Origin: Pseudarthrobacter sp. C4D7
GTDB taxonomy: Bacteria; Actinomycetota; Actinomycetes; Actinomycetales; Micrococcaceae
Reading direction: 5' to 3'
NCBI RefSeq assembly: GCF_013359725.1
Contig: NZ_JABFMW010000001.1
Location: forward strand, 62,001 to 126,000
DNA length: 64,000 bases
Positions 8,055 to 62,008 of this stretch are shown here, piece after piece (the stretch's first letter is position 1; every line of letters starts with the position of its first letter). The notes below the pieces were generated by a model. It was not told the origin of the DNA. It ran no database searches and was given only the letters and a program-made list of their open reading frames with translations. Position numbers and translations under genes: made by a program.

Positions 8055-10133
8055 ATGTCTGAAACTGCCCGCAAGTTCACCCTGCTGCCCATGCTCGGCC
8101 ATACCAAGGGCAAGCGCAGCCCCGTCACCTGCGCGCTTAAGTGCGACAACGCCTGCGCCGGCGACGTCTGCAACACCAGCTCCAACAGCTACTTCCGCGA
8201 CATCGCCTCCGCCACCTTGTCCCGCCGCGCCGCCCTGGGCCTGGGCGCCGCCGGAGCTCTCGCCGTCGCCCTCGGTTCAGCCGTCAGCTCCGCCGAGCCC
8301 GCCTCAGGAGCCGGACTGTCCAAGGCCGCCAAGGAAGGCTTCGGCAAGTCCAAACTGCAGTTCACCGCCATCAAGCCGGTGGACAAGGCCGTCGACGCCT
8401 TCACCGTGCCGGAGGGCTTCACCTGGCAGCCGATCATCCGCTGGGGGGACCCGCTGTTCAGCGATTCACCCGAGTTCGACCTGAACAACCAGACTGCCGC
8501 CGCCCAGGCACGCCAGTTCGGCTACAACAACGACTACACGGACATCGTGGAAATCCCCGGCAGCAAGGGCCGCCGGGCGGTGCTGTTCACCAACCACGAA
8601 TACACCAACGAAAACATCATGGTCCCAGCCGGCTACGACCCCGTGGAAACCCGGGCGATCGGCCGCGCCGCCCATGGCCTGGCCGTGGTGGAACTGGAAC
8701 GCAAGAACACCACCAAGCCGTGGAGCTACGTCAAGGGCGCGCCGCTGAACCGCCGCTACCTCTCCGACACCACCTACGAACTGACCGGCCCCGTTGCCGG
8801 CTCGGCGCTGGTCAAGACCGTGGCCGATCCGTCCGGCCGCGCCATCAAGGGCACGTTCGGCAACTGCTCCGGCGGCACCACCCCCTGGGGCACCATCCTC
8901 TCCGGTGAGGAAAACTTCAACGGCTACTTCGTGGCCGGCGGAACCTCGGCCGGCGACAAGCGCTACGGCCTCACCGCCAAGCCCACCGCCCGCCAGTGGG
9001 AACTGGACGACCCCCGCTTCGACACCCGCAACGCCGGCTACGAGAACGAGAGCAACCGCTTCGGCTGGATCGTGGAAGTGGACCCGTTCGACCCCACCTC
9101 CACCCCCAAAAAGCGCTCCGCCATGGGCCGGTTCAAGCACGAGGGCGCCAATGTGATCGTGGCCGAATCCGGGCACGTGGTGGCCTACATGGGCGACGAC
9201 GAGAAGTTCGACTACCTCTACAAGTTCGTCACGGCGGACACATACCGTTCAGGCACAACGGCTGCCGACCGCAGGCACAACATGAACCTGCTCTCCGAGG
9301 GCGACCTCTACGTTGCCAAGTTCACCGGCAACTCGCCCGCCGCGGAAATCACGGGAACCGGTGCGCTTCCGTCCGACGGAGCGTTCGACGGCTCCGGCGA
9401 ATGGCTTCCGCTGGTGGTCGGCGGAAAGTCCGCAGTGCCCGGCATGTCCGTGGAAGAGGTCCTGGTGTACACCCGCCTGGCCGCGGACAAGGTGGGCCCC
9501 ACCAAGATGGACCGCTGCGAGGACGTCCAGCCCAGCCTGCACACCGGCAAGGTCTACGTGGTCTGCACCAACAACTCCGACCGCGGCACCGGCACCAAGG
9601 AAGGCGCCACCGAGGTCAACCCGCGCACACAGAACCGCGATGGCCACATCGTGGAAATCACCGAAACCGGCGACCAGGCCTCCACCAGGTTCAACTGGAC
9701 CCTCCTGATGGTCTGCGGCGATCCGGCGCAGGGCGATGTCACCTACTTCTCCGGCTACCCGGCGGACAAGGTCTCGCCCATCTCCTGCCCGGACAACGTG
9801 GCCTTCGACTCCGTGGGCAACCTCTGGATCTCCACCGACGGCGCCCCCTCCGGCATCGGCTACAACGACGGCCTCTTCAAGGTCACCCTGGACGGGGCCG
9901 AGCGCGGCAAGGTGGAGCAGTTCCTGTCCGTCCCGCGTGACGCCGAAACCTGCGGCCCGGTCATCCACGACGACGAGCGCACCGTGTTCGTCTCCGTGCA
10001 GCACCCGGGCGAGGAAGGCACTTTCGAGGCGCCGCACTCCTACTTCCCGGACTACGTCCAGGCAGGTACGACGCCGGCGCCCGGCAAGGTGCGCGCGCCC
10101 CGTCCTTCGGTGGTCCAGGTGTTCCGCGGCTAA
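8055..10133 (+). CDS. phoX: PhoX-family alkaline phosphatase, 692 aa
   Basis: Secreted Tat-dependent phosphatase of the PhoX family (DUF839), Ca/Fe dependent in studied members, releasing phosphate from organic phosphate esters. The signal is long: about 55 residues precede the twin-arginine stretch S-R-R-A-A-L-G-L-G-A-A. The mature part contains the family segments FTNHEYT, FGNCSGGTTPWGTILSGEENFN, ESGHVVAYMGDDE and DNVAFDSVGNLWISTDG. The four Cys of the N-terminal region (ALKCDNACAGDVC) are retained. Start ATG 8055 is preceded by GGAAGG; an upstream in-frame ATG at 7986 lacks this. It stands alone, with the 32-bp repeat array after it. Confidence 0.92.
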   Translation: MSETARKFTLLPMLGHTKGKRSPVTCALKCDNACAGDVCNTSSNSYFRDIASATLSRRAALGLGAAGALAVALGSAVSSAEPASGAGLSKAAKEGFGKSKLQFTAIKPVDKAVDAFTVPEGFTWQPIIRWGDPLFSDSPEFDLNNQTAAAQARQFGYNNDYTDIVEIPGSKGRRAVLFTNHEYTNENIMVPAGYDPVETRAIGRAAHGLAVVELERKNTTKPWSYVKGAPLNRRYLSDTTYELTGPVAGSALVKTVADPSGRAIKGTFGNCSGGTTPWGTILSGEENFNGYFVAGGTSAGDKRYGLTAKPTARQWELDDPRFDTRNAGYENESNRFGWIVEVDPFDPTSTPKKRSAMGRFKHEGANVIVAESGHVVAYMGDDEKFDYLYKFVTADTYRSGTTAADRRHNMNLLSEGDLYVAKFTGNSPAAEITGTGALPSDGAFDGSGEWLPLVVGGKSAVPGMSVEEVLVYTRLAADKVGPTKMDRCEDVQPSLHTGKVYVVCTNNSDRGTGTKEGATEVNPRTQNRDGHIVEITETGDQASTRFNWTLLMVCGDPAQGDVTYFSGYPADKVSPISCPDNVAFDSVGNLWISTDGAPSGIGYNDGLFKVTLDGAERGKVEQFLSVPRDAETCGPVIHDDERTVFVSVQHPGEEGTFEAPHSYFPDYVQAGTTPAPGKVRAPRPSVVQVFRG

Positions 10134-10147
10134 CCCCCGCCCACCCT

Positions 10148-10243
10148 GGACGCGCTATCACCTTTGGCGGCTTTTCCGGGGACGCGCCATCACCTTTGGC
10201 GGCTTTTCCGGGGACGCACCATCACCTTTGGCGGCTTTTCCCT
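10148..10243. repeat. Three tandem 32-bp repeats, family C
   Basis: Three units at 10148-10179, 10180-10211 and 10212-10243, each close to GGACGC-x-CCATCACCTTT-GGCGGCTTTTCC. They differ at only a few bases. A related two-unit array with the same 32-bp period lies at 16331-16393. Each array leads directly into a hairpin with AAACGCCCGCTC arms. No spacer sequences separate the units, so this is not CRISPR. Confidence 0.85.
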
Positions 10244-10294
10244 AAACGCCCGCTCACCTTCTGCTCCTTCCGGCGGAATGGTGGGCGGGCGTTT
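10244..10294. repeat. Hairpin closing the 32-bp repeat array
   Basis: Arms AAACGCCCGCTCACC (10244-10258) and GGTGGGCGGGCGTTT (10280-10294) pair with one mismatch in 15. The same arm sequence is found at 16396-16448. It could also act as the phoX terminator, but it has no T-run. Confidence 0.7.
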
Positions 10295-10345
10295 CGGCGT
10301 TAATGCCAGCTTGTCCGGCTGCTAAAGAGGCATCGCAGTGTGATG

Positions 10346-10393
10346 CTTGACACGTGTTAGGCGGTTCATCTACAGTTCCTAACACGTGTTAGG
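10346..10393 (+). promoter_or_regulatory. Promoter with two LacI-type operators for the fructan operon
   Basis: TTGACA (10347-10352) and TACAGT (10371-10376) are separated by 18 bp. One operator, CTTGACACGTGTTAGG (10346-10361), overlaps the -35. A second, CCTAACACGTGTTAGG (10378-10393), is a perfect 16-bp palindrome just downstream of the -10. The centres are 32 bp apart, about three helical turns. A third related site precedes the LacI gene at 16303-16318. Repression by the LacI-family protein of this operon is a strong inference. Confidence 0.8.
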
Positions 10394-10405
10394 AAGGAAA
10401 AGGAC

Positions 10406-11827
10406 ATGACCGGAGCCATTGACGGGCACCTGCGGGAGATCACCCGCCGTACTGCCCTGGGTGCCCTCGGCGCGGGAATAATCGGAGCAACCGTGGCGTC
10501 GTGGCCGCGGCTCTCCGGAACGGACATTCCGGGCCGCGGAGACGACAGCCTCAGCATCGCCATCATGGGCACCGCCGCGGACGCCGCCGCCCGCCAGCGT
10601 GCCATCGACGCATTCACCCGACTCCACCCGGAGATCCGGGTCAAGGTCCAGGCCATCCAGGCCGTGGACTGGAAAGACTTCTTCACCAAGATCCTCACCA
10701 TGGTGGCCGCCGGCACCCCGCCGGACGTGGTGTACGTGGCCACCGAGGGCGCCCAGCTGTTCGCCGAAAAACTGGCCCACCCGCTGGACGAATACATCCG
10801 CCGCGACGCCGCGGACATGCGCGAGTTCTTCGATGACGTCCACCCCAGCCTGGTGGAAGCCTTCATGTACAAGGGCAGCCTCTACCAGCTCCCCATGGAC
10901 TGGAACGCGGCCAACATGTATTACAACACCGCCGCCTTCGCGCAGGCAGGCCTGGACCGGCCCGCGGACGACTGGACCCACACCGATTTCCGCAACAGCC
11001 TCGCCGCGATGCGCAAGGCCCGGACTTCTGACTTCACGCCCTACTACTGGACCAACCGGCTCTTCGGCGGCGTGGTCCCGTGGCTTTACGCCAACGACAC
11101 CAGCTTCCTCAAGGAAACCAAGTCGGCGGGCGGCGACTGGCTCTGGGACGGTTTCTACGCCAACGATCCCTCCCGCAGCCTCCGCTCCGGCGGCTACCAG
11201 TGGCTGGAACCCAACGCCAACGACGACCGCGTGTTCGAGTCCTTCGACTACCTCCGGGGCCTGGTCAAGGACGGCCTGGGCGTCCGGCCGGAAGAAGGCG
11301 GCGGCAGTTCCCTGGTGGGCCTGTTCGCCTCCAACCGGATCGGCACCACTCCCGCCGGCGGCTACTGGGTGCAGGGGCTGCATGAAGCCGGCATGGGCGC
11401 CAACGACTTCGACGTCCAGTTCTTTCCGCGCTGGAAGACCCAGCGCCACCAGTTCGGCACCGCCGGCTACGCGATCATGAAGACCGCCAAGGACAAGGAC
11501 GCCGCCTGGGAATGGATCAAGTTCAGCTCCAGCCGTGAGGCCATGGAACTGATCTTCCCCAACCCGATCACCACGCCGGCGCGCCGCTCCATGGTCAACG
11601 AACAGCTCTACGCCGGCAAGGGCCCCGCCCACTGGAAGGTCTTCTACGACACCCTGGACCGGTTCCCCACCACAGGCCCCATTCCGGCACCGCCCCAGCA
11701 GGCCGCCGTCGAAACCGCTCTGATGAAGAACGTTTCCCTTGCCGTCAGCGGGGACGAGCAACAGCTCAAGCAGGCCCTCGCATCCATGCAGCGCGACCTT
11801 GAACTTGCCCTGAGGAGGCAGTCATGA
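10406..11827 (+). CDS. Sugar ABC transporter substrate-binding protein, 473 aa
   Basis: Extracellular solute-binding protein of the oligosaccharide (family 1) type. The N-terminus has a twin-arginine signal (T-R-R-T-A-L-G-A-L-G-A-G) and no lipobox Cys, so it may be Tat-exported and held by its N-terminal helix. Typical family segments include a leading LSIAIMG, DAFTRLHPEIRVKVQ, AAGTPPDVVYVATEGAQ, YQLPMDWNAANMYYNTAAF and FGTAGYAIMKTAKDKDAAWEW. RBS AGGAAGGAAAAGG precedes the ATG. It heads an operon with two permeases (4-bp overlap) and a GH32 enzyme. Context suggests sucrose, fructo-oligosaccharides or levan fragments as ligand. Confidence 0.9.
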   Translation: MTGAIDGHLREITRRTALGALGAGIIGATVASWPRLSGTDIPGRGDDSLSIAIMGTAADAAARQRAIDAFTRLHPEIRVKVQAIQAVDWKDFFTKILTMVAAGTPPDVVYVATEGAQLFAEKLAHPLDEYIRRDAADMREFFDDVHPSLVEAFMYKGSLYQLPMDWNAANMYYNTAAFAQAGLDRPADDWTHTDFRNSLAAMRKARTSDFTPYYWTNRLFGGVVPWLYANDTSFLKETKSAGGDWLWDGFYANDPSRSLRSGGYQWLEPNANDDRVFESFDYLRGLVKDGLGVRPEEGGGSSLVGLFASNRIGTTPAGGYWVQGLHEAGMGANDFDVQFFPRWKTQRHQFGTAGYAIMKTAKDKDAAWEWIKFSSSREAMELIFPNPITTPARRSMVNEQLYAGKGPAHWKVFYDTLDRFPTTGPIPAPPQQAAVETALMKNVSLAVSGDEQQLKQALASMQRDLELALRRQS

Positions 11828-51911: not shown

Positions 51912-53282
51912 ATGACCACCACCGCATCAGACATCACCTTCCGCCTGGACCAGAAGCGCAACGTCCAGGCCGACTTCCCGGGCCCCAAGTCCGTGGCACT
52001 GACTGAGCGCCGCAAGTCCGTGGTGGCTGCCGGCGTCGCCTCCAGCGTCCCGGTCTACGTTGCCGACGCCGACGGCGGCATCATCCACGACGTCGACGGC
52101 AACTCCTTCATCGACCTGGGCTCCGGCATCGCCGTGACCAGCGTGGGTGCATCCGATCCCGCCGTTGTGGGAGCAGTCAAGGAAGCCGTGGAGCACTTCA
52201 CGCACACGTGCTTCATGGTCACCCCCTACGAGGGCTACGTGGCCGTTGCCGAACAGCTGAACCGCCTCACCCCCGGCGACCACGAGAAGCGCACGGTCCT
52301 CTTCAACTCCGGCGCCGAGGCAGTGGAGAACGCTGTTAAGGTGGCCCGCCTCGCCACCGGCCGGGACGCCGTCGTCGCCTTCGACCACGCCTACCATGGC
52401 CGCACCAACCTGACCATGGCGCTGACCGCCAAGGCCATGCCGTACAAGACCAACTTCGGTCCGTTCGCTCCCGAGGTCTACCGCATGCCCATGAGCTACC
52501 CGTACCGCGAGGAAAACCCCGCGATCACGGGCGCCGAGGCTGCCAAGCGCGCCATCACCATGATCGAGAAGCAGATCGGCGGGGACCAGGTCGCCGCGAT
52601 CATCATCGAGCCCATCCAGGGCGAGGGCGGCTTTATTATCCCGGCCGAGGGTTTCCTGCCGGCACTGGCCGCCTGGGCCAAGGAAAAGGGCATCGTCTTC
52701 ATCGCGGACGAGGTCCAGTCCGGCTTCTGCCGCACCGGCGAATGGTTCGCCGTCAACCACGAAGGCGTCGTCCCGGACATCCTGACCATGGCCAAGGGCA
52801 TCGCCGGCGGCATGCCGCTGTCCGCTATCACCGGCCGCGCCGACCTCCTGGACGCCGTGCACCCCGGTGGCCTGGGCGGCACCTACGGCGGCAACCCGGT
52901 GGCCTGCGCCGCCGCCCTGGCGTCCATCGGTTCCATGGAGGAGTACGACCTGAACGGCCGCGCCCGCCACATCGAAGCCATCGCCACGGCACGCCTGCGC
53001 GACCTGCAGTCCGAGCTGGCCGGCGCCGGCAACGCCGTGATCGGCGACGTCCGCGGCCGAGGCGCCATGCTCGCCGTCGAACTCGTCCAGGCCGGTTCGA
53101 AGGAACCCAACCCGGACCTGACCAAGGCCGTCGCCGCCGCCTGCCTGAAGGAAGGCGTCATCATCCTCACCTGTGGCACGTACGGCAACGTCATCCGCCT
53201 GCTGCCTCCGCTGGTCATCACCGATGAACTGCTCGAAGACGGCCTGGAAGTCCTCGCCGCGGCCATCAAGGCCAACGCCTAG
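51912..53282 (+). CDS. gabT: 4-Aminobutyrate aminotransferase, 456 aa
   Basis: Class III PLP transaminase converting GABA and 2-oxoglutarate to succinate semialdehyde and glutamate. Marks: NSGAEAVENAVKVARLATGR, FDHAYHGRTNLTMALTAKAMPYK, IIEPIQGEGGF, FIADEVQSGFCRTG and the PLP lysine in M-A-K-G-I-A-G-G. Follows the dehydrogenase by 57 bp, with AGAAAGAAAG before the ATG; same operon. A strong intrinsic terminator follows. Succinate-semialdehyde dehydrogenase is not in the window. Confidence 0.93.
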   Translation: MTTTASDITFRLDQKRNVQADFPGPKSVALTERRKSVVAAGVASSVPVYVADADGGIIHDVDGNSFIDLGSGIAVTSVGASDPAVVGAVKEAVEHFTHTCFMVTPYEGYVAVAEQLNRLTPGDHEKRTVLFNSGAEAVENAVKVARLATGRDAVVAFDHAYHGRTNLTMALTAKAMPYKTNFGPFAPEVYRMPMSYPYREENPAITGAEAAKRAITMIEKQIGGDQVAAIIIEPIQGEGGFIIPAEGFLPALAAWAKEKGIVFIADEVQSGFCRTGEWFAVNHEGVVPDILTMAKGIAGGMPLSAITGRADLLDAVHPGGLGGTYGGNPVACAAALASIGSMEEYDLNGRARHIEAIATARLRDLQSELAGAGNAVIGDVRGRGAMLAVELVQAGSKEPNPDLTKAVAAACLKEGVIILTCGTYGNVIRLLPPLVITDELLEDGLEVLAAAIKANA

Positions 53283-53305
53283 CAGCCCCACTCCGGAGTA
53301 CCGGG

Positions 53306-53338
53306 AAAGGCAGCACCCCGCCGGGGTGCTGCCTTTTT
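53306..53338 (+). terminator. Intrinsic terminator after gabT
   Basis: AAAGGCAGCACCCC pairs with GGGGTGCTGCCTTT (14 bp) around a 3-nt loop, ending in a T-run. Confidence 0.9.
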
Positions 53339-53339
53339 C

Positions 53340-53809
53340 GTTGCCGGAAAGCCCGCATAGGGGGATACCTAGGCCCCGGCGCCGGACCGTGACAACTACC
53401 TAACATCCCGACCGGCGCGGCGGGCAGGCGTCGGTCCCCCAAAAACCCTTTGGTAAGTAGCCCCAAAAATCTTTATAGAGTACCCGTTACTCGTGTCCGC
53501 CCTCCGCCGGAATCCGTAATTTTGACCTATAAACGGGTGGGCAGTGCGCGACGCCGGATGCCTGAGGCGCCACCTGCCACCCCACACTGCGGAGCTGCTT
53601 TGGCGCTCCCCAAACAAGTCAGCCGCAGGGTAATGACGCTGCCCTGCCATGGCACTGACGACAGGAACTTCCACAACGCCTGGTGCATGGGCACCCCAGG
53701 TGGCGACACCCCATAGCCCAAATGACGCTCAACTTGCTCAAGACAGGGGGAAGGCAACGATGCAGCCTTCAGCAATGACGCAAGATTTACGGGGAAACGG
53801 GGAGGGCCT
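53340..53809 (+). other. 470-bp non-coding leader before the exopolysaccharide locus
   Basis: No convincing gene. From 53420 to 53530 it is more A/T-rich than its surroundings, including TTTATAGAG near 53471 and TTTTGACCTATAAAC near 53519, which look like promoter parts. From 53530 to 53730 are several GC-rich inverted repeats, for example GGTGGGCAGTG versus CACCTGCCACC. A long structured 5' leader or cis-regulatory RNA is possible; I could not match it to a known riboswitch. Confidence 0.4.
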
Positions 53810-54253
53810 GTGGTGACGCACCCGGGGTCCTTCGCCGTGCCTTCAGCCGCAACCTTTGGCAGGGACGGCGCCATGTTCGAGAACCTGCTCAGTTTCGTGG
53901 CCCAGATGAGCCTGGTGCTGTGGGCCTTGGTGGTCCTCACCGTGATCATCCGCTTCGTGGGTATCCGGTTCTACCGCCACGCCGCACGCAGGGCCCTGGC
54001 CCGGATCACGGCCGCCACGGACATCCCGGCCGTTGCGGGTCCAGCCGCAGCCGCTGGTCCGGCAGGCTCCGCCGGGGTTGGCGTGGCAGGGGCTGCCGGG
54101 GCTGCCGCTGCACAAGCCGCCGCTGCAGCCGTCAAGCCGGCCATCGCCGTCGTGCCTGCTATCGCAGCCGGAATCGACCCGCTCCAACCGGCCAACGTCC
54201 CGCTGCCCGAAGCCCTCAGGAACGTGCTGGCCGCCAACTCCGCGGACGGGTGA
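53810..54253 (+). CDS. Small membrane protein of the exopolysaccharide locus, 147 aa
   Basis: One strong transmembrane helix (about residues 28-48, FVAQMSLVLWALVVLTVIIRF), then a basic stretch and a long Ala/Gly/Pro-rich region before a short polar tail. It directly precedes the glycosyltransferase gene (3 bp gap), so it may be an accessory subunit of the synthase; no known family recognised. GGGGAGGG precedes the GTG at 53810; ATG 53873 (MFENLL) is an alternative that keeps the helix and would give 126 aa. Confidence 0.7.
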   Translation: MVTHPGSFAVPSAATFGRDGAMFENLLSFVAQMSLVLWALVVLTVIIRFVGIRFYRHAARRALARITAATDIPAVAGPAAAAGPAGSAGVGVAGAAGAAAAQAAAAAVKPAIAVVPAIAAGIDPLQPANVPLPEALRNVLAANSADG

Positions 54254-54256
54254 GCG

Positions 54257-55597
54257 ATGGATATCGCGCTCGTGGTCTTCTGGCTCTTCGCGGCCGTCAG
54301 CATCCTCTATGTGGTGCACTTTGGCCTGTACCTGGCCGGCGCCAACTTCTACGACATCTGGCAGCAGCGCCGGAAGGGACTCACGGGCGTCCGGCTTCCG
54401 TCCCAGTACCAGCCGGAATGTGCTTCCACCGCCACCTGGACCAGGCGGGCGCTCCCCGAGGTGCCGGGCCTGGTTTCCATCGTCATTGCGGCCCACAACG
54501 AGGAAGCAGTGATCGTCCGGACGTTGGATTCCATCCGGCGCAGCACCTACCCCGCCTTCGAAGTCCTCGTGGCGGACGACGCCTCGGCTGACCTCACCGG
54601 GCGCCTGGTCCGCGACTACCAGCTGCGCCATCCCGGGATGGACCTCCGCGTGGTGCGGATGCACCGCAACGTGGGAAAGGGGGCGGCGCTCAACTCGGTG
54701 CTGCGCCGGTTCGCGCGGGGCCAGTTCGTCATGACTCTCGACGCCGACTCGGTCATCCAGCCGGACGCCATCGCCAACGCGCTGTCATACTTCGACGATC
54801 CGTACGTGGCCGGCGTGGCAGCCAATGTCCAGATCATGGAGGACACCACGGCCCTTGGCATCCTGCAGCGCTTCGAACACATGATCGGCTACCGGTCCAA
54901 GAAGCTCTACTCGCTGCTGAACTGTGAGTTTGTGGTGGGTGGGGTGGCCTCCACCTACCGGATGCGCGTGCTGCGCAAGGTGGACTTCTATGACACGGAC
55001 ACGGTCACGGAGGACATCGGCCTGAGCGCGAAGGTCACGCACCTGGGCAACAGGCGCTTCCGGATGGTCTACGCCGCAGACGTCGTGGCAAAGACCGAAG
55101 GCGTACTGACCTTCCGCGCCCTGGTCAAGCAGCGTTTCCGCTGGAAATACGGCAGCATCCAGAACCTCATCAAGTACCGCAGCATGACCCTGAATCCGAG
55201 CTGCCGGTACAGCCGGACCCTGGCCTACTACCGGATGCCCATGGCCGTGCTGAGCGAGTTCACCCTGCTGGTCTCACCCCTGGCCTGGACGTACGCCGTG
55301 TACTGGTCGCTGGCCACATACACGCCGGCGCTCATCATCGGCTCATACGCAACCATCACGGCCTACACCCTGCTGACGGTCCTCATGGACGAGAACCTCA
55401 CGCCACGGGAACGGACCCGGCTGTGCATGTACGCGCCCACCGCCTACTTCCTGTTCTACATCATGGACCTGGTCCAACTGTCTGCAGCTGTCCGCTGCAT
55501 CGCCCGGTCCCGCGGCCTGGTCAGGCGGCCTGAGATCAACACCTGGAAGTCTCCGCAGCGGGCCGGCAGCGTGGCGGTGGCCAGCCGTGCCGCCTAG
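54257..55597 (+). CDS. Processive GT2 polysaccharide synthase, 446 aa
   Basis: Membrane glycosyltransferase of the hyaluronan/PNAG/cellulose synthase type. One N-terminal helix, then the GT-A domain: VSIVIAAHNEEAVI, VADDASADLT, D162-A-D164 (DxD), T-E252-D253, and Q292-R-F-R-W296, the QxxRW motif marking processive enzymes. Three to four helices follow (residues 330-420), forming the likely export channel. Substrate sugar cannot be read; linked deacetylases suggest an N-acetylated sugar such as GlcNAc. The stop overlaps the next gene by 11 bp. Confidence 0.9.
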   Translation: MDIALVVFWLFAAVSILYVVHFGLYLAGANFYDIWQQRRKGLTGVRLPSQYQPECASTATWTRRALPEVPGLVSIVIAAHNEEAVIVRTLDSIRRSTYPAFEVLVADDASADLTGRLVRDYQLRHPGMDLRVVRMHRNVGKGAALNSVLRRFARGQFVMTLDADSVIQPDAIANALSYFDDPYVAGVAANVQIMEDTTALGILQRFEHMIGYRSKKLYSLLNCEFVVGGVASTYRMRVLRKVDFYDTDTVTEDIGLSAKVTHLGNRRFRMVYAADVVAKTEGVLTFRALVKQRFRWKYGSIQNLIKYRSMTLNPSCRYSRTLAYYRMPMAVLSEFTLLVSPLAWTYAVYWSLATYTPALIIGSYATITAYTLLTVLMDENLTPRERTRLCMYAPTAYFLFYIMDLVQLSAAVRCIARSRGLVRRPEINTWKSPQRAGSVAVASRAA

Positions 55598-57401
55598 GGC
55601 CAGGCGGGTCCGCCGGGTACTGCTGAATCCGTTTGTCGTCATCTCCGTCGTGGTCCTGTTGATCACCGCGGGGTGGTTCATCTACACGGGCAGGCTGGGC
55701 AGCTTCGCCCAGGCGCGGCCCGGGGCCAACCTGCTCCCGGCGCTTTTTCCCGCCGTAGCCGGACCCGTCGCCACACCCGGGCCCGCGCCGTCGGCCGGTT
55801 CCTCGGTGGCACCTTCCGGCGCGTGGACCGCGGCGCACAGCGGGGGTGCAAAAACGTCCCTGAACCTGGTGCCCGGGCAGATGGGGGCGCAGGCACTGAA
55901 GCTTGACGTCACGGACTATGTATCCGGCGACGTTACCCTGACCAGCCCGCGCGTGGACCTGATCCCAGGGACCACTTATCTCTTCAAGGTGTTCACCACG
56001 ACTGAATCCGATTTCCGGCTCCTGGCCCGGAAGTACCACAAGGATGGAAGCGCCACCCTGGAGCAGCTGCGGAACCCAGTGGAACGGCCAGGCACCACGG
56101 CGTTCACGGTCAGCGACGCCTTCAACAGCGGCGACTCCGTCACTGCGGTGGAATACGTCTTCCGCTTCGCCTCCGCCGGCTCCGCCCGGGTGGAAGGGGC
56201 CTACCTCGAAGCAGCGGCCGACGTCCAGCTTCCGCCGCCCGCAGTGGATGGTCCCAACATGGTCCCCAACCCGGGATTCGCAGGCACCGACCCGAACCAA
56301 CCAGCCTCCTGGTCCCCCTACTCGTCGGGAACGTCAACGGTGGAGTCAGGCCGCGGCGAGGACGGACGCGGCAGCTTCCTGTGGACCCGGATCGGGAACT
56401 ACCAGAACGGTGAGGCGAAGTGGCAGTACCAGCCCGTCCCGGTGACCCAGGACCGCTATTTCAGGTTCGGCGCGGCTTACAAGGCTGAACGCGAGGTGGA
56501 CGTGGTGGCCGAGTTCGAGCTGGTGGGCGGCGGACGGACGTTCCGGAACCTCGAGACCGTGCCGCCGGCAGGGGAATGGACCACCATCAGCGAGGCATTC
56601 CAGGTCCCGGCCGGCGCCGTCAACGCCATGGTCACCCTGGTGGCACATGGCAACGGGAGCACCGCCGTCCGCAACTTTTCGCTCACGGACATCACCAAGC
56701 CAGGTCCGCTGCGGTGGAACCAGCCCATGGTGTCCATCACGTTCGACGACGGGTGGCAGTCCGTATACGACCGGGCGCTGCCGCTCCTGGCCAAGCACGG
56801 TTTCCGGTCCACCCAATATGTGAACGCCAGCTCCATCGAGACGCCGGACTTCATCACCGGTGCGGAAGTCCAGCAGTTGCACCAGGCCGGGCACGAGATC
56901 GCCGCGCACGCCTACCAGCACGTCGACCTCACATCCGTGGGCGCCGACCGCCTGGACGAGGAACTGCGCAGAAGCGAGGACGCGCTGGCCGCGGCAGGCC
57001 TTCCCACGGACGACCTTGCGCCGCCGTACGGCAGGACCGACGCCCAGGTGGACTGGTATGCGGCCCAGTACTTCAAGATCATGCGGGGCACTGATGACGG
57101 CATCAACACCAGGCAAAACATCAATCCGCATGACCTGAAAGTCCTCTACGTCACCGACGCGACCACGACGGAAACGCTGAAGGAAGCGCTTGCCGAGACC
57201 GCCCGGTCCAACGGCTGGCTGATCCTGGTCTACCACCAGATCGCTGCCCCCGATTCGTCGGGGACCCAGAAAAACACCATTGCGGGGGACAGGAGCACCA
57301 TCACCAGCGATGTCCTCGCAACCCAGCTGCAGCTCATCGACGACAGCGGGATCCAGGTACAACCGGTCGCGCGGGCGTTCGAGCAGCTGCAGGGCCCGTG
57401 A
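55587..57401 (+). CDS. Membrane-anchored polysaccharide deacetylase with carbohydrate-binding-like domains, 604 aa
   Basis: N-terminal signal anchor (residues 11-31, FVVISVVVLLITAGWFIYTG), a variable Pro/Ala linker, then two beta-rich carbohydrate-binding-like regions (about 60-220 and 220-370; the second begins NMVPNPGFAG). The NodB deacetylase domain starts near residue 380 with T-F-D387-D388-G-W; the metal His pair is H-A-Y-Q-H, and PPYGRTDAQV plus VYHQIA follow. It should remove acetyl groups from polymer emerging outside the membrane, comparable to IcaB/PgaB. Overlaps the synthase gene. Confidence 0.88.
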   Translation: MPPRARRVRRVLLNPFVVISVVVLLITAGWFIYTGRLGSFAQARPGANLLPALFPAVAGPVATPGPAPSAGSSVAPSGAWTAAHSGGAKTSLNLVPGQMGAQALKLDVTDYVSGDVTLTSPRVDLIPGTTYLFKVFTTTESDFRLLARKYHKDGSATLEQLRNPVERPGTTAFTVSDAFNSGDSVTAVEYVFRFASAGSARVEGAYLEAAADVQLPPPAVDGPNMVPNPGFAGTDPNQPASWSPYSSGTSTVESGRGEDGRGSFLWTRIGNYQNGEAKWQYQPVPVTQDRYFRFGAAYKAEREVDVVAEFELVGGGRTFRNLETVPPAGEWTTISEAFQVPAGAVNAMVTLVAHGNGSTAVRNFSLTDITKPGPLRWNQPMVSITFDDGWQSVYDRALPLLAKHGFRSTQYVNASSIETPDFITGAEVQQLHQAGHEIAAHAYQHVDLTSVGADRLDEELRRSEDALAAAGLPTDDLAPPYGRTDAQVDWYAAQYFKIMRGTDDGINTRQNINPHDLKVLYVTDATTTETLKEALAETARSNGWLILVYHQIAAPDSSGTQKNTIAGDRSTITSDVLATQLQLIDDSGIQVQPVARAFEQLQGP

Positions 57402-57457
57402 CCACCACTGACGCGGTGAAACGCGGCGCCTTCGCCACCCGAAAGAAGGAGAAAGTC

Positions 57458-59242
57458 ATGATCACATCCAGATCCGGCCTGGTGCGCCGCCGCGCCAGGC
57501 TCCTGACCATCGGGGTGGCTGTGTGGGCAATAGCCGCCGCGCTGCTGTCCCCCGCGGCCGCGAATGCCGCCGTCGATAACCCCGCACCGACTCCGCTCGT
57601 GTCCTTCACCTTCGACGACGGGATGCAGAATGCCCTGACGCAGGCGGCCCCCACCCTCAAGAAGTACGGGCTCACCGGCACCAGCTACGTCATCACCAAC
57701 TGCGTGGGGATGACCACGGTGCCGAACACCTGCCGCGCCAACACCGACGTTCCGTACATGACGTGGGACCAGGTCACCCAGCTGCAGAACACCTACGGCT
57801 GGGAGATCGGCTCGCACACCGTTGACCACCAGTGCCTTGTGAGCGTGGGCAATGACTGCCAGGCCACCAAACTGACGGCCGCCCAGGTGGACGCCGAACT
57901 GGCCAACAGCAAGGCAGCACTGGCCGCCCACGGGTTCAACGCCACCGCCTTGGCCACACCTTACGGGGACTACGACATGTCCGCGCTCGCCCGGATAGCG
58001 AAGTACTACACCTCGATGCGTGGCTTTGCCGACGTCGGCAACAACATCTGGCCCCTCGGTGACCTGCTGCTCCACAACACCCCGGTGCAGGAAGCCACCA
58101 CCCCGGTCTCCACGCTGAAGGCGAAGGTTGACGAGGCCATCGCCAACAGGACCTGGGCCATCTTCACGTTCCACGACATCCGGCCATCGCCGAGCCAGAA
58201 CCCGGACGACTACCAGTACGGCACGGCCGAGCTGGACCAGCTGGCCGCCTACGTGCAGACCAAGGTGGCGGCCGGGCAAATCAGGAACGTCAACGTCAGC
58301 AAGGGCCTGGTAAACGGCAGCCCCAACCTGCTTCCCAACCCCACATTCAATAACGGCATCGCCGACGGTTGGCGCACCGACGCCCCGGCCACGATCACCG
58401 CGGACTCGGGGACCAACGGCAGCTTCCCGGACCCCGCCAAGTCCGTAAAGCTGGTCTCGGGCGCCGCTGCAGGCCACCTGTTCTCACCGAAGGTAGCGGT
58501 CTCGGCGGCCAACAGCTACCTGTACAAGGCGTACCTCAACGTCGCTGCCATTTCCTCCGGGGAAGTGGGCTTCTACGTGGACGAGTACAACGCGGCCGGG
58601 CAGTGGATTTCCGGACAGTTCCGCAAGCGGGAAAACAGCCGCTGGGTGGAGTCGATGAACTTCACCTACACGCCAAGCTCCACCAGCGTTGCCACTGCCA
58701 GCCTGCAGGTCTACGTGACCGGAACCGGCATCACCGCCTACCTGGACAACATGCAGATGATGGCGCTCGGGGCGGGTTCCACCACGCCGGCGCCGAACCT
58801 CGTGGCGAATGGCACCTTTGATGCCGGCATCGGCTCGGGCTGGCGGACGGACTCCGCCACCACCATCGTGGCTGACGCGGCCAACCATGGCAGCCCGGCC
58901 AATCCGGTTAACTCGGTCAAGATGACGGCCACCACGGCCAACAAGCACCTGTTCTCCCCGCAGGTGGCCGTGGCTCCAGGCAGCTATAAGATTGCCAGCT
59001 ACCTCAACATCACGGCGCGGACCAGCGGCGAGATGGGCTTTTACATCGACGAATACAATTCCGCCGGGCAATGGATCTCAGGGCAGTGGAAGCTTGGGGT
59101 CTCAACAGCCGGCGTGACCAATGTGGACCTCACGTACTCGCCGAGCAGCACCTCTGTGGCCAAGGCAAGCCTGCAGGTGATCGTCCAGGGCAACTCGGGA
59201 CTGAAGGCCTACTTCGACGACGTCCGCTGGACCAAGTCCTAG
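57458..59242 (+). CDS. Secreted polysaccharide deacetylase with two C-terminal carbohydrate-binding-like modules, 594 aa
   Basis: Sec signal peptide ending about residue 38 (LLSPAAANAA). NodB domain from residue 47: S-F-T-F-D53-D54-G, H-T-V-D-H metal pair, TPYGDYD and FTFHDI. Two tandem C-terminal modules of about 145 residues, near 288-433 and 446-592, are clearly homologous (both contain FYVDEYNAAGQWISGQ or FYIDEYNSAGQWISGQ and a YTPSSTSVA-type segment); they resemble CBM4/9-like folds. ATG 57458 has a near-perfect AAGGAG; the longer frame from GTG 57398 overlaps the previous stop and is less likely. Confidence 0.9.
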   Translation: MITSRSGLVRRRARLLTIGVAVWAIAAALLSPAAANAAVDNPAPTPLVSFTFDDGMQNALTQAAPTLKKYGLTGTSYVITNCVGMTTVPNTCRANTDVPYMTWDQVTQLQNTYGWEIGSHTVDHQCLVSVGNDCQATKLTAAQVDAELANSKAALAAHGFNATALATPYGDYDMSALARIAKYYTSMRGFADVGNNIWPLGDLLLHNTPVQEATTPVSTLKAKVDEAIANRTWAIFTFHDIRPSPSQNPDDYQYGTAELDQLAAYVQTKVAAGQIRNVNVSKGLVNGSPNLLPNPTFNNGIADGWRTDAPATITADSGTNGSFPDPAKSVKLVSGAAAGHLFSPKVAVSAANSYLYKAYLNVAAISSGEVGFYVDEYNAAGQWISGQFRKRENSRWVESMNFTYTPSSTSVATASLQVYVTGTGITAYLDNMQMMALGAGSTTPAPNLVANGTFDAGIGSGWRTDSATTIVADAANHGSPANPVNSVKMTATTANKHLFSPQVAVAPGSYKIASYLNITARTSGEMGFYIDEYNSAGQWISGQWKLGVSTAGVTNVDLTYSPSSTSVAKASLQVIVQGNSGLKAYFDDVRWTKS

Positions 59243-59279
59243 CACCACCAGGTCCCGGCAGCAGGGGAGAGGACGGAGG

Positions 59280-60962
59280 ATGGGCGGGCACCGGCACGCA
59301 CTGACAGTGGTGCTGGTGTCCGCCCTCCTCGTGATCCTCTCTTCCTGCACACCGCCCAAGCCCGATGTGACGCTGGACCTGCTGGATGGTGACTGGCAGG
59401 ACGTTCCCGGTGTCCGGGCAGCGGAGGGTGCCCTCCAGGTGACGCCCACCGCCAGGCGCATCGTGGAGCAGAGCGGGGAGGGAGGCCAGCCAAACCCCCC
59501 GCTCAACCTCGCCGGCACCCACTTGGTGGTCGGCGGTGATTTTTCGCTTTCCGCCACTTTTGCGCACGTGACAGCGGACGCATCCTGGGCCCTGTATGAC
59601 CGGCCGCCCGTCATCGCGGATGAGTTCCGGGTGGAGCCGGCCGGCCTGCGGCTAACCCTCCAGGGCAATGACCTCAGGATTGCGGTCTTCGACGGGACAC
59701 AGAAGAAGGACGTGTCCCAGCCGAAGCCCGTGCACGAGGAACACGTGACCGTGAAAGATCCCGGGGCTCCCCTCACCGTGCGCCGCTCCGGCGACTCCCT
59801 GGCCTTTTCCAGCGGCACCGGCACCCTTTCCACGATGCCCCTGGGCAAGGTTTTTTCATCCGGTGAACTGTGGCTGGGGTTCTCCAGCGAATCCGGGGAT
59901 TTCGACATCACCACGCTCACGGCGGTTGCGCCGGGAAATACCGGACTGCGGACGTCGGGGGCCGCCGTGGCAGATCTCCAGCCGTCAAAGGACGGCCTGC
60001 AGGCGCTCGCCGCCAGGACCCGTCCCGACTTCCTGATGGGCGCGGCCGTGGCACTGGGCCCGCTCACCGGCGACGCCGACTATGCCCGGGAGTTCGTGGG
60101 GAACTTCGGCGCCCTCACGCCGGAAAACGCCATGAAGCCGCAGTTCCTCTCCCCGCAGCAGGGCGTGTACACCTTCGAGGAGGCTGATGCGATCCTTACC
60201 ATTGCGCGGAGCAAAGGCATTGCGGTGCACGGCCACACCATCGCCTTCACGGAGGCCATGCCCCGCTGGATGCAGGACCTGCCTGCCGGTTCCGAGGCTG
60301 AGCGCCGGGCCAGCGGCGCTGCCCTCCTGGACTACATCGCCACGGTGGTGGGGCACTTCAAAGGCCGGCTGGCGTCCCTCGACGTGGTCAACGAGCCTTT
60401 CGACGTGGACCAGGGAACCAGCATGCAGCAAAACATCTGGTACCGCGTCTTTGGGCCGGGCTATCCGGCCGTGGTCTCCAAAGCCGTCTACGCAGCCGAT
60501 CCGGACGTCAAGCAGTACATCAACGAAAACGGCGCCGACGTGCCGGGACGCCGCCAGGACGCGCTGCTCAAACTCATCCTGGACGCCAACGCGCAGGGCG
60601 GCCACATCTACGGCGCAGGCCTCCAGGCGCACGTCTATGACCTGGGAACTGACGCCATTACCGCGGACGGCCTCTCCCGCACGCTCAAACACTTCGGGGA
60701 CGCCGGGCTGCGGGTCCGGATCTCCGAGAACGACGTCACGGACGACCACGGGACCGAAGCCCAGGCGGAGCAGTACGCCGCGGTGGTGTCCACCTGCCTG
60801 CGTTCGCGCTCCTGCATTTCCTACACCACCTGGGGCGTCGATGACCGCTATGACTGGTGGATCGACGACGGCGGGACCCTGCAACAGGGGCACGACCACC
60901 TGTTCAACAACGGCAAGCCCACCCCTGCCTACGACGCCGTCAAGCGCGCCCTGGGCGGCTGA
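59280..60962 (+). CDS. GH10-like glycoside hydrolase lipoprotein, 560 aa
   Basis: Lipoprotein signal with lipobox L-S-S-C at about residue 23. Residues 30-230 form a beta-rich domain of unknown type. Residues 240-560 are a GH10 fold: LTPENAMKPQ, the VVNEPF acid/base E372, GLQAHVYDL, nucleophile E483 in I-S-E-N-D-V, and TTWGVDDRYDW. The usual R-G-H-T-L-V-W-H is V-H-G-H-T-I-A-F-T here, losing the Trp and second His that line the active site in xylanases, so substrate may not be xylan. Genetic linkage suggests trimming of the locus's own polymer. Confidence 0.85.
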   Translation: MGGHRHALTVVLVSALLVILSSCTPPKPDVTLDLLDGDWQDVPGVRAAEGALQVTPTARRIVEQSGEGGQPNPPLNLAGTHLVVGGDFSLSATFAHVTADASWALYDRPPVIADEFRVEPAGLRLTLQGNDLRIAVFDGTQKKDVSQPKPVHEEHVTVKDPGAPLTVRRSGDSLAFSSGTGTLSTMPLGKVFSSGELWLGFSSESGDFDITTLTAVAPGNTGLRTSGAAVADLQPSKDGLQALAARTRPDFLMGAAVALGPLTGDADYAREFVGNFGALTPENAMKPQFLSPQQGVYTFEEADAILTIARSKGIAVHGHTIAFTEAMPRWMQDLPAGSEAERRASGAALLDYIATVVGHFKGRLASLDVVNEPFDVDQGTSMQQNIWYRVFGPGYPAVVSKAVYAADPDVKQYINENGADVPGRRQDALLKLILDANAQGGHIYGAGLQAHVYDLGTDAITADGLSRTLKHFGDAGLRVRISENDVTDDHGTEAQAEQYAAVVSTCLRSRSCISYTTWGVDDRYDWWIDDGGTLQQGHDHLFNNGKPTPAYDAVKRALGG

Positions 60963-60991
60963 CGCAGGCGTCTGCCGGACAGGCCCGGAGG

Positions 60992-62008
60992 TCAGGCGCT
61001 TTGGCGGGCCGCCGCCCTGCGGGCCAGGGAATTGCGGCGCGCCGTCCGCAGCATGTCCAGGGTCAACAGCAGCAGGGCCAGCCACACCACGCCGAAACCA
61101 ATCCAGCGCTCAACCGTCATGGCCTCCCGGAACACCAGCAGTGCCACCAGGAACTGCAGGACTGGAGCAAAGTACTGGAGCAGGCCGATGGTGGTCATGG
61201 GCAGCCGCCGGGCGGACGCACCGAAGAAGAGCAACGGAACAGCGGTGATCACGCCTGAGGCCAGCAGCAGCCAGAAATGGCCCGCACCCTGGGACGTCAG
61301 GGTTGAGTTTCCTCCTGCAGCCAGGACCACCATGGCCACGGCCGCGAACGGGGCGAGCACCATGGTTTCCACGCTCAGGCTGGTGATGGCGTCCACCCTC
61401 GATCCCACCCGGTTCTTGACGAAGCCGTACAAGCCAAAGCTGAACGCCAGGGTGAGTGCGATCCACGGCAGTTTCCCATAGGAGTAGGTGAGGACGCCCA
61501 CCGCCACGAAGCCGACGCCGACGGCGGTCCACTGGAGCGGCCGAAGCCTTTCCTTCAGGACCAGCACCCCCAGGAGGACGGATACGAGCGGGTTGATGAA
61601 ATAGCCCAGCGACGTTTCCACGGCCTGCCCGGTGGTGACGCCATAGGTGTACGTCAGCCAGTTGATGGCGATCAGGAACGCCGCCAGCGCCAGGGAACCG
61701 AAGACGCGGCGGTCCTTCAATGCCGCCGCCAGCACGCTCCACGCCCTGGTGACCGTGATCAGGAGGGCGCAGAAAATCAGCGACCACACCACGCGGTTGG
61801 CCACGATTTCCACTGCGCCGGCGGGCATCAGGACAAAGAAATACAGGGGGAGCAGCCCCCACAAAACGTACGCGCCGACGCCAAACAGCATCCCCGCCGT
61901 CGAGTCCTTGGCGGCCTGCCCCGGAGCCCCCGGCCCGGATCCTCCCGGGGCGGCTGCTGCCGGGGTGGCGACGGATGTGGCGTGGGAGGTTCGTTCTGGC
62001 GTGGGCAC
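60992..62008 (-). CDS. rarD: RarD-type EamA transporter, 338 aa
   Basis: Ten-helix drug/metabolite transporter of the RarD branch (historically linked to chloramphenicol sensitivity). Typical parts: GMLFGVGAYVLWGLLPLYFFVL, AVEIVANRVVWSLIFCALL, NWLTYTYGVTTGQAVETSLGYFINPLVSVLLGVLVLKERL and TIGLLQYFAPVLQFLVALLVFRE. GTG start; an Ala/Gly/Pro-rich cytoplasmic leader of about 30 residues precedes helix 1. Substrate unknown. Convergent with the exopolysaccharide locus. Confidence 0.92.
   Translation of the reverse strand: MPTPERTSHATSVATPAAAAPGGSGPGAPGQAAKDSTAGMLFGVGAYVLWGLLPLYFFVLMPAGAVEIVANRVVWSLIFCALLITVTRAWSVLAAALKDRRVFGSLALAAFLIAINWLTYTYGVTTGQAVETSLGYFINPLVSVLLGVLVLKERLRPLQWTAVGVGFVAVGVLTYSYGKLPWIALTLAFSFGLYGFVKNRVGSRVDAITSLSVETMVLAPFAAVAMVVLAAGGNSTLTSQGAGHFWLLLASGVITAVPLLFFGASARRLPMTTIGLLQYFAPVLQFLVALLVFREAMTVERWIGFGVVWLALLLLTLDMLRTARRNSLARRAAARQSA

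Follow-up and report, generated by a model that had tools for sequence, protein, structure and literature searches.

A conserved and apparently mobile five-gene cassette of Micrococcaceae and Cryobacterium, predicted to make a deacetylated exopolysaccharide and carrying an unusual GH10 lipoprotein

The gene cassette described here lies in a stretch of 64,000 nucleotides from Pseudarthrobacter sp. C4D7 (hereafter the window), which has 63-71% G+C per 2 kb and comes from a genome of 4.3 Mb. At positions 53810-60962, five genes on the + strand encode a small membrane protein, a glycosyltransferase of family 2 (GT2), an anchored and a secreted deacetylase of carbohydrate esterase family 4 (CE4), and a lipoprotein of glycoside hydrolase family 10 (GH10). 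They are flanked by a gabT-like aminotransferase gene (51912-53282, + strand) and a rarD-like gene (60992-62008, - strand), both named from their sequence. The features of the locus are the following.

53810..54253, + strand: orf1, small membrane protein of no known family, conserved upstream of GT2.
54257..55597, + strand: GT2 synthase with D, D, TED and QxxRW motifs (Pfam GT2, E=1e-29).
55587..57401, + strand: CE4 deacetylase a (CE4a), with an N-terminal membrane anchor, two predicted beta-sandwich modules and a C-terminal CE4 domain (Pfam CE4, 7e-24).
57458..59242, + strand: CE4 deacetylase b (CE4b), with a signal-type N terminus, a CE4 domain and two C-terminal CBM_4_9-like modules (Pfam CE4, 3e-19).
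59280..60962, + strand: GH10-family lipoprotein, with lipobox LSSC, an N-terminal all-beta part (~30-227) and a GH10 barrel (~237-560).
53478..53495, + strand: upstream element GAGTACCCGTTACTCGTG, inverted repeat GAGTA/TACTC, 332 bp before orf1.

In gene order the spacings are +3, -11, +56 and +37 bp, the third counted from the ATG start of CE4b at 57458, for which an in-frame GTG at 57398 is an alternative. A first-pass annotation had proposed five tightly packed same-strand genes (spacings -11 to +56 bp) that combine a GT2, two deacetylases and a GH10 protein; the open reading frames bear out the coordinates and strand, and Pfam matches together with catalytic motifs bear out the gene content. 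The Pfam search names four of the five genes, and among the five it finds no acetyltransferase and no transporter, xylosidase or xylose gene.

The order of these genes is conserved in relatives, a point that had been set beforehand as a check on the first-pass annotation. Our scan took one genome per species and used a single-protein GH10 query, so that it reached close relatives only, and it returned 22 loci with a GH10 ortholog. Fourteen of these (L033-L037, L039-L047) carry all five genes in the same order, two of them imperfectly, with split matches in both CE4 genes (L034) or a broken-up match in CE4b (L043). One locus (L038) begins inside CE4a at a contig end and shows CE4a, CE4b and GH10, and in the Arthrobacter liuii locus (L032) an apparent internal deletion has left orf1, the first part of GT2, the last part of CE4b and the GH10 gene. 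Compared with the complete loci, this record (8985-11680; also seen as L118) is short of ~4.3 kb that would hold most of GT2, all of CE4a and most of CE4b, through either a true deletion or an assembly fault. The remaining six loci (L048-L053) have the GH10 gene alone. The closest named relatives of the cassette are in Arthrobacter and Pseudarthrobacter, and outside the Micrococcaceae it occurs in three Cryobacterium records (Microbacteriaceae). Among 119 relatives, 12 carry a full-length GH10 ortholog of at least 65% identity, namely 11 of 73 genomes of the genus and one genome of another family (G096). In 10 of the 11 genus carriers the GT2 ortholog is 82-100% identical, and in the eleventh (G009) a GT2 remnant is left. 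A class-wide draw of 394 genomes returned the GT2 profile at E<=1e-60 in the window's own genome only and the GH10 profile, at the same threshold, in seven: the window's genome, two clade members (~66% identity), three relatives from one family (34-37%) and one partial match.

Ten of the 15 cassette loci with usable flanks sit between gabT and rarD, and neither gene was found in the available stretch of the other five (Cryobacterium L039, L040 and L045, Kocuria L043 and Arthrobacter sp. SX1312 L044). The four genomic sites have only the five cassette genes in common: when neighbouring genes from the window and 14 loci were clustered (simple gene calling, at least 80 amino acids; links above 40% identity, 60% coverage and E<=1e-20), no cluster beyond these five was common to the gabT-site loci and the other five loci. 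Within the genus, gabT and rarD share a contig in 70 of 72 genomes, and the cassette lies between them in all 11 carriers, at a gabT-rarD distance of 7.7-9.2 kb except in G009, where an apparent internal deletion leaves only 3.4 kb. In 23 of 59 scorable non-carriers this distance is a mere 67-286 bp, which we read as the empty site; the remaining 36 hold 451-12924 bp of other content. A joined tree of the four large proteins was built from 13 loci, those represented in each of the four alignments, which leaves out L032, L034, L038 and L043. In this tree the copy of Arthrobacter sp. SX1312 nests inside the Cryobacterium copies with support of 100/100, and a topology in which the three Cryobacterium copies form a group of their own is rejected (p-AU, the approximately unbiased p-value, 0.0001). 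As such, the cassette appears to have moved between families as a unit, in a direction that the tree does not fix and on the assumption that the organism names of the records are correct. Correlations of protein distances between cassette members are 0.49-0.73, values that have no control and are not used as evidence. That the five genes are chance neighbours was considered as well, and is ruled out by their conserved order and shared movement.

The first gene, orf1, encodes a strong hydrophobic stretch at residues 24-55, followed in the Ala-rich tail by a weaker one at 103-122, and precedes GT2 in each of the 14 complete loci as well as in L032. It belongs to no Pfam family, and its sole, weak NCBIfam match falls far under cut-off. 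An upstream GTG start is favoured over the ATG at 53874, since the TFGRDGAMFE stretch that precedes the helix is largely conserved. The GT2 protein has hydrophobic stretches at 1-29, 358-377 and 398-416 by simple hydropathy, and all 15 aligned rows contain the motifs TLDADS, TEDIGL and KQRxRWKYG. With D, D, (T)ED and QxxRW between flanking membrane segments, it is predicted to be a processive synthase. Its best NCBIfam family is PgaC/IcaA (TIGR03937), at 138.7 bits and under the equivalog cut-off of 422.3; the same model is matched by 15 of 15 GT2 rows at E<=1e-15 (best 4.1e-44), and the cellulose-synthase score is as low as 29.1 bits. For scale, the PgaC model gives 205 bits for a MatB-like fused protein of Kocuria, and 143.5 and 130.4 bits for two GT2s from plasmids of lactic acid bacteria. 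Since two CE4 genes follow the GT2 gene and none of the five encodes an acetyltransferase, an N-acetylhexosamine is the simplest reading of the polymer. Many relatives also have a GT2 match of ~30-37% identity within an open frame of ~630-910 amino acids.

Both CE4 proteins have the motifs of the family and Pfam matches above cut-off, as expected of polysaccharide deacetylases. In CE4a, TFDDGW, HxxxH, PP(Y/F)GR and VYHQ, and in CE4b, TFDD, HxxxH, PYGD and FHD, are each present in 14 of 14 rows. A hydrophobic stretch lies at 7-37 of CE4a, and CE4b, like the GH10 protein, begins with a signal-type stretch. CBM_4_9 matches CE4b in two stretches at 26.2 bits, just above the cut-off of 25.9, and CE4a below it (18.7 bits), yet 10 of 14 aligned CE4a rows match at E<=0.001. 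Furthermore, a model of CE4a, albeit of low confidence (mean pLDDT 58.7), places two beta-sandwich modules ahead of the CE4 domain, with a xylanase tandem CBM22 as the best fold match in a list that also holds many unrelated beta-sandwich proteins. On this model CE4a seems to carry two beta-sandwich modules too, an addition to the initial picture of one anchored deacetylase and one secreted deacetylase with paired modules. For both proteins NCBIfam ranks the deacetylase HfsH first, at 76.1 and 54.6 bits against a cut-off of 400. The scores for IcaB/PgaB (TIGR03933 and TIGR03938, cut-offs 248.35 and 321.9) stay well under as well, at 41.8 and 26.7 bits for CE4b and 14.5 and 24 bits for CE4a.

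The fifth protein is a clear member of GH10 (Pfam PF00331, 202.4 bits against a cut-off of 22.1, E=1.3e-59) with both catalytic Glu residues present. Its model (pLDDT 79.0, pTM 0.75) consists of an all-beta N-terminal part, which has no Pfam match and is barely covered by the structure comparison, and a barrel that is closest to xylanases (7wha, Z 35.5, root-mean-square deviation 2.5, 306 residues aligned). Invariant in 23 of 23 GH10 rows are the catalytic E372 and E483, together with K286, H319, N371, Q449, H451 and W518. The substrate pocket was compared in an alignment of 62 rows, of which 37 belong to the clade of the window protein (32 distinct genes). Every one of these 37 has F, T/S, A/S, L, N-E-N-G and S-E-N-D where ordinary enzymes have W, H, Q, W, N-D-Y and T-E-x-D; the matching pocket residues of solved xylanases are seen in the structure alignments, and we take position names such as W84 and Q87 to be Cex numbering. 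As judged from these alignments, the clade thus lacks the ordinary xylanase pocket (W-H-x-Q, W, N-D-Y, T-E-x-D). Sixteen of the 25 other rows keep W-[HN]-x-Q, three are otherwise odd (L022, L030, L108), and six of Streptomyces type are intermediate. The latter are 34-37% identical, match through the N-terminal part too, and have W-H/F-x-A, N-E-Y-G and S-E-M/A-D. Among proteins on Streptomyces plasmids, two (L096, 7884-9626; L098, 7923-9629) are annotated as endo-1,4-beta-xylanase; their similarity to the window GH10 extends through its N-terminal part, and their pocket is half changed, which makes the annotation doubtful. This suggests caution with automatic xylanase names, both for the GH10 clade and for these plasmid relatives.

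A tree of 38 GH10 rows unites all 23 copies from cassettes in a single clade (99/98) and places nine lone and six Streptomyces-type copies outside it. The stand-alone copies with the remodelled pocket (L048-L053, L103, L104, and L115, which is the same gene as L013) come from records named Microbacterium, Frigoribacterium, Serinibacter, Nocardioidaceae and others; those of G198 and G232 were judged alone from ~9 kb on either side. L048-L053 have no neighbour in common, except for 28-35% identity between a few proteins that resemble transport ATPases. As the same subfamily occurs without the other four genes nearby, the GH10 enzyme is a recruited part that is not tied to the cassette. The initial view of it as part of the locus holds for all 14 complete loci, and has to be qualified in that the nine lone loci show it not to be bound there. 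Because the lone copies have the remodelled pocket, the change of pocket most simply preceded recruitment into the cassette, the alternative being that the lone lineages lost the four other genes. The window's genome has no other GH10 match, and a second one was found in just one of the 11 carriers (G009).

What can be read directly at these loci is the gene content, its conservation, the movement of the genes as a unit, the intact catalytic motifs and the changed GH10 pocket. On this basis we consider it probable that the cassette is a self-contained, horizontally moving synthase-dependent system for a partly deacetylated amino-sugar exopolysaccharide, with a recruited GH10 enzyme that trims it. 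As to the chemistry and linkage of the polymer, the activities of the enzymes and their order of action, we infer the following. The GT2 would polymerise N-acetylhexosamine inside the cell and thread the chain through the membrane, with orf1 as its likely helper, in the position of MatA or IcaD. The anchored CE4a would strip some N-acetyl groups as the chain emerges, and the secreted CE4b, with its two putative sugar-binding modules, could continue deacetylation on chains already in the matrix. The lipid-anchored GH10 would cut the chain at the cell surface, thereby setting its length or releasing it, and might do so only at deacetylated positions. This restriction is proposed because N371 is kept, the equivalent of which in xylanases makes contact with the C2 hydroxyl of the bound sugar, and because a hydroxyl and an unacetylated 2-amino group are of similar size. 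Cutting that depends on deacetylation would explain why a GH10 gene lies beside two deacetylase genes.

Several points weigh against this reading. The polymer is predicted from gene content, and a GT2 score of 138.7 bits against a cut-off of 422, below the 205 bits of the MatB-like protein, fixes neither sugar nor linkage. The step from residue changes to a GH10 substrate is an inference as well. Moreover, nine lone GH10 relatives share this pocket and have none of the other four genes in their neighbourhood, and all five searchable genomes of six with a lone copy are without a close GT2: the GT2 matches listed for these five have 21-40% identity and reach E 4.9e-19 at best, and G096 has none better than 3.8e-8. 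Lastly, the Arthrobacter liuii record lacks most of the GT2-CE4a-CE4b stretch and yet has the GH10 gene.

A more far-reaching proposal, tentative and on balance doubtful, is that this GH10 enzyme founds a subfamily that no longer acts on xylan and would cut an amino-sugar chain only where a deacetylase has freed the amino group. It would have been recruited once, from a stand-alone enzyme, into the mobile cassette, and its stand-alone relatives might be enzymes that eat or loosen the matrix, directed against the polymer of other bacteria. Should the GH10 protein indeed act on an amino-sugar polymer, a family known for its action on xylan would gain a further activity, and the enzyme could provide a tool for dissolving matrices. 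More generally, a compact transferable unit with sharp boundaries would be a convenient system for studying how Gram-positive bacteria deacetylate and cut secreted chains.

Of the other explanations, the one that survives best, although we regard it as unlikely, is that a diverged ica/mat-type system makes ordinary poly-N-acetylglucosamine (PNAG, beta-1,6-GlcNAc) and that the GH10 protein is an accessory which acts on something else. PgaC/IcaA is indeed the best NCBIfam family of the GT2, CE4b also matches IcaB (41.8 bits), and the actinobacterial MatAB makes PNAG, as described in PMC5972031. However, both scores are far below their equivalog cut-offs (138.7 against 422.3 and 41.8 against 248.35), and a GH10-fold enzyme, which each of the 14 complete loci encodes, fits a beta-1,6 polymer poorly. 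To our knowledge, characterised GH10 enzymes cut beta-1,4 chains.

That the polymer is a neutral or O-acetylated chain of beta-glucan type, from which the CE4s would remove O-acetyl groups and on which the GH10 would act as a glucanase, seems quite improbable. Such a chain would agree with the Gln position of the pocket, which by alignment is Ala or Ser in the clade and is one of the two sites changed in an engineered S. olivaceoviridis xylanase, Q88A/R275A, listed among PDB titles. Changes of this type reportedly open the -2 subsite to glucose-type sugars; papers on Gln/Arg subsite mutants were not found in our literature search, and PMC4806347 yielded no usable list of residues. The Arg position gives no such support, for it is not distinctive: the clade has W, L, F, S or Y there, and ordinary GH10 rows, mostly with V, are also without Arg, bar L022. 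Furthermore, an acetyltransferase is missing from the five genes, and the GT2 scores 29.1 bits for cellulose synthase against 138.7 for PgaC.

A role in acetylxylan breakdown, in which a GH10 xylanase would work together with the two CE4s as acetylxylan esterases and with modules that bind xylan, the GT2 being a bystander, is very improbable. GH10, CE4 and CBM22-like or CBM_4_9 modules are known to co-occur in xylan degradation, the solved structures most similar to the GH10 protein are for the most part those of xylanases, and a xylanase CBM22 pair heads the module matches of CE4a. Against this, the GT2 gene overlaps CE4a by 11 bp and accompanies it to each site seen, the five genes are without a transporter, xylosidase or xylose gene, the ordinary pocket residues are missing across the whole clade, and ordinary xylan degradation is hard to reconcile with a sole GH10 in the genome, with 10 of 11 carriers that have no second match, and with a synthase that travels with the block.

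Upstream of the cassette, an exact pattern match of the element is found in all 11 genus carriers. The inverted repeat is present in 10 of 15 loci examined, including L044 and, with one extra spacer base, L037; it is absent from L036, the three Cryobacterium loci and the Kocuria locus among these 15. With up to one mismatch allowed, the pattern is present eight times in the genome of the window, and its reversed control not once. Across the genus, 41 of 73 genomes contain exact copies, and the control gave a single match in all 73. One copy in the own genome lies just upstream of an ANTAR-domain gene (ANTAR 53.4 bits against a cut-off of 27.3, GAF below cut-off). The same holds for nine of 20 further stretches (five from carriers, four from non-carriers), which were hand-picked from a longer list and are no random sample; the other 11 are without that gene. 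These findings suggest that the element may be part of a shared control circuit by which the cassette is wired into host regulation. At the copies outside the cassette (loci L119-L126 and L127-L135), the ANTAR-domain gene often has a MarR gene beside it, and at another place in the genome (L125) a copy with one mismatch precedes a GT2 gene. At 53340-53470 of the window, on the upstream side of the inverted repeat, TACCTAA-N-CCCC-like boxes recur in several gabT-site loci, though their two matches in the window, a number reached by 8 of 100 shuffles, are not clearly beyond chance. An Rfam search of 52500-61500 gave nothing at E<=0.5, a scan for sigma-70-like promoters found none in 53200-61100, and the same region has one terminator-like site against 4.4 expected from shuffles.

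Related gene arrangements were also seen on plasmids. A Kocuria plasmid (L101, 3870-6143) encodes an example of the GT2 matches of ~30-37% identity mentioned above, a CE4-GT2 fusion of the MatB type beside a gene annotated as chitinase (GH18 below cut-off). On plasmids of Lacticaseibacillus (L099, 1633-4749) and Lactococcus (L100, 3432-6555), a peptide of 54-57 residues has LPQAG or LPETG followed by a hydrophobic stretch and a basic tail, resembling a sortase signal. It adjoins a GT2 and a membrane protein of 547-561 residues that has no Pfam match at E<=0.01.

How does the cassette compare with systems already described? The survey of synthase-dependent systems in PMC7112194 reports cellulose, PNAG and Pel operons in Bacilli and Clostridia, and Pel in Actinobacteria as well; neither GH10 nor Arthrobacter turns up as a term in its main text. 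We found no description of this gene combination among the papers listed by searches of the open full-text literature (15 of 748 in one case), a scope that most subscription papers fall outside, and within it the suggestion that the combination is undescribed is upheld. MatAB of Streptomyces consists of a small protein without known domains, a GT2 and an extracellular CE4, the latter two fused in MatB (PMC5972031). Both systems are actinobacterial, and each combines a small protein with a GT2 and an extracellular CE4. The cassette differs in that CE4 and GT2 are not fused, be it in the window or in any of the 14 complete loci, and in that there are two CE4s; it also has a GH10 gene, of which none is named for mat in the sections of PMC5972031 covered here. 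With icaADBC of Staphylococcus the cassette has in common a GT2, a small membrane helper and a surface deacetylase in one operon, but none of its five genes is of an IcaC-type family, and its scores are below the IcaA and IcaB cut-offs. The ica operon is not known to include a hydrolase. With the pgaABCD system of Gram-negative PNAG it shares a synthase, a deacetylase and a hydrolase, which in the cassette are predicted to act together. The PgaB hydrolase belongs to another family than GH10. Moreover, the cassette has no outer-membrane pore gene, and its deacetylase and hydrolase are separate, whereas they are fused in PgaB. The hydrolase domain of PgaB cleaves deacetylated PNAG, according to a paper cited in PMC6307706, and the Listeria Pss locus of the latter is a Gram-positive one that makes a beta-1,4-ManNAc polymer and has its own hydrolase, PssZ. 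The likeness to Pss lies in a Gram-positive locus with its own hydrolase, the amino-sugar chain being known for Pss and predicted for the cassette. As far as is known, the hydrolase family and the gene set of Pss differ from those of the cassette. Compared with GH10 endo-1,4-beta-xylanases, the GH10 protein has the same fold and catalytic residues, and differs in its clade-wide pocket changes, its extra N-terminal beta part and its being a lipoprotein. As such, the cassette is best read as a conserved, apparently mobile variant of the systems for deacetylated exopolysaccharides, in which one part, the GH10 enzyme, is unusual.

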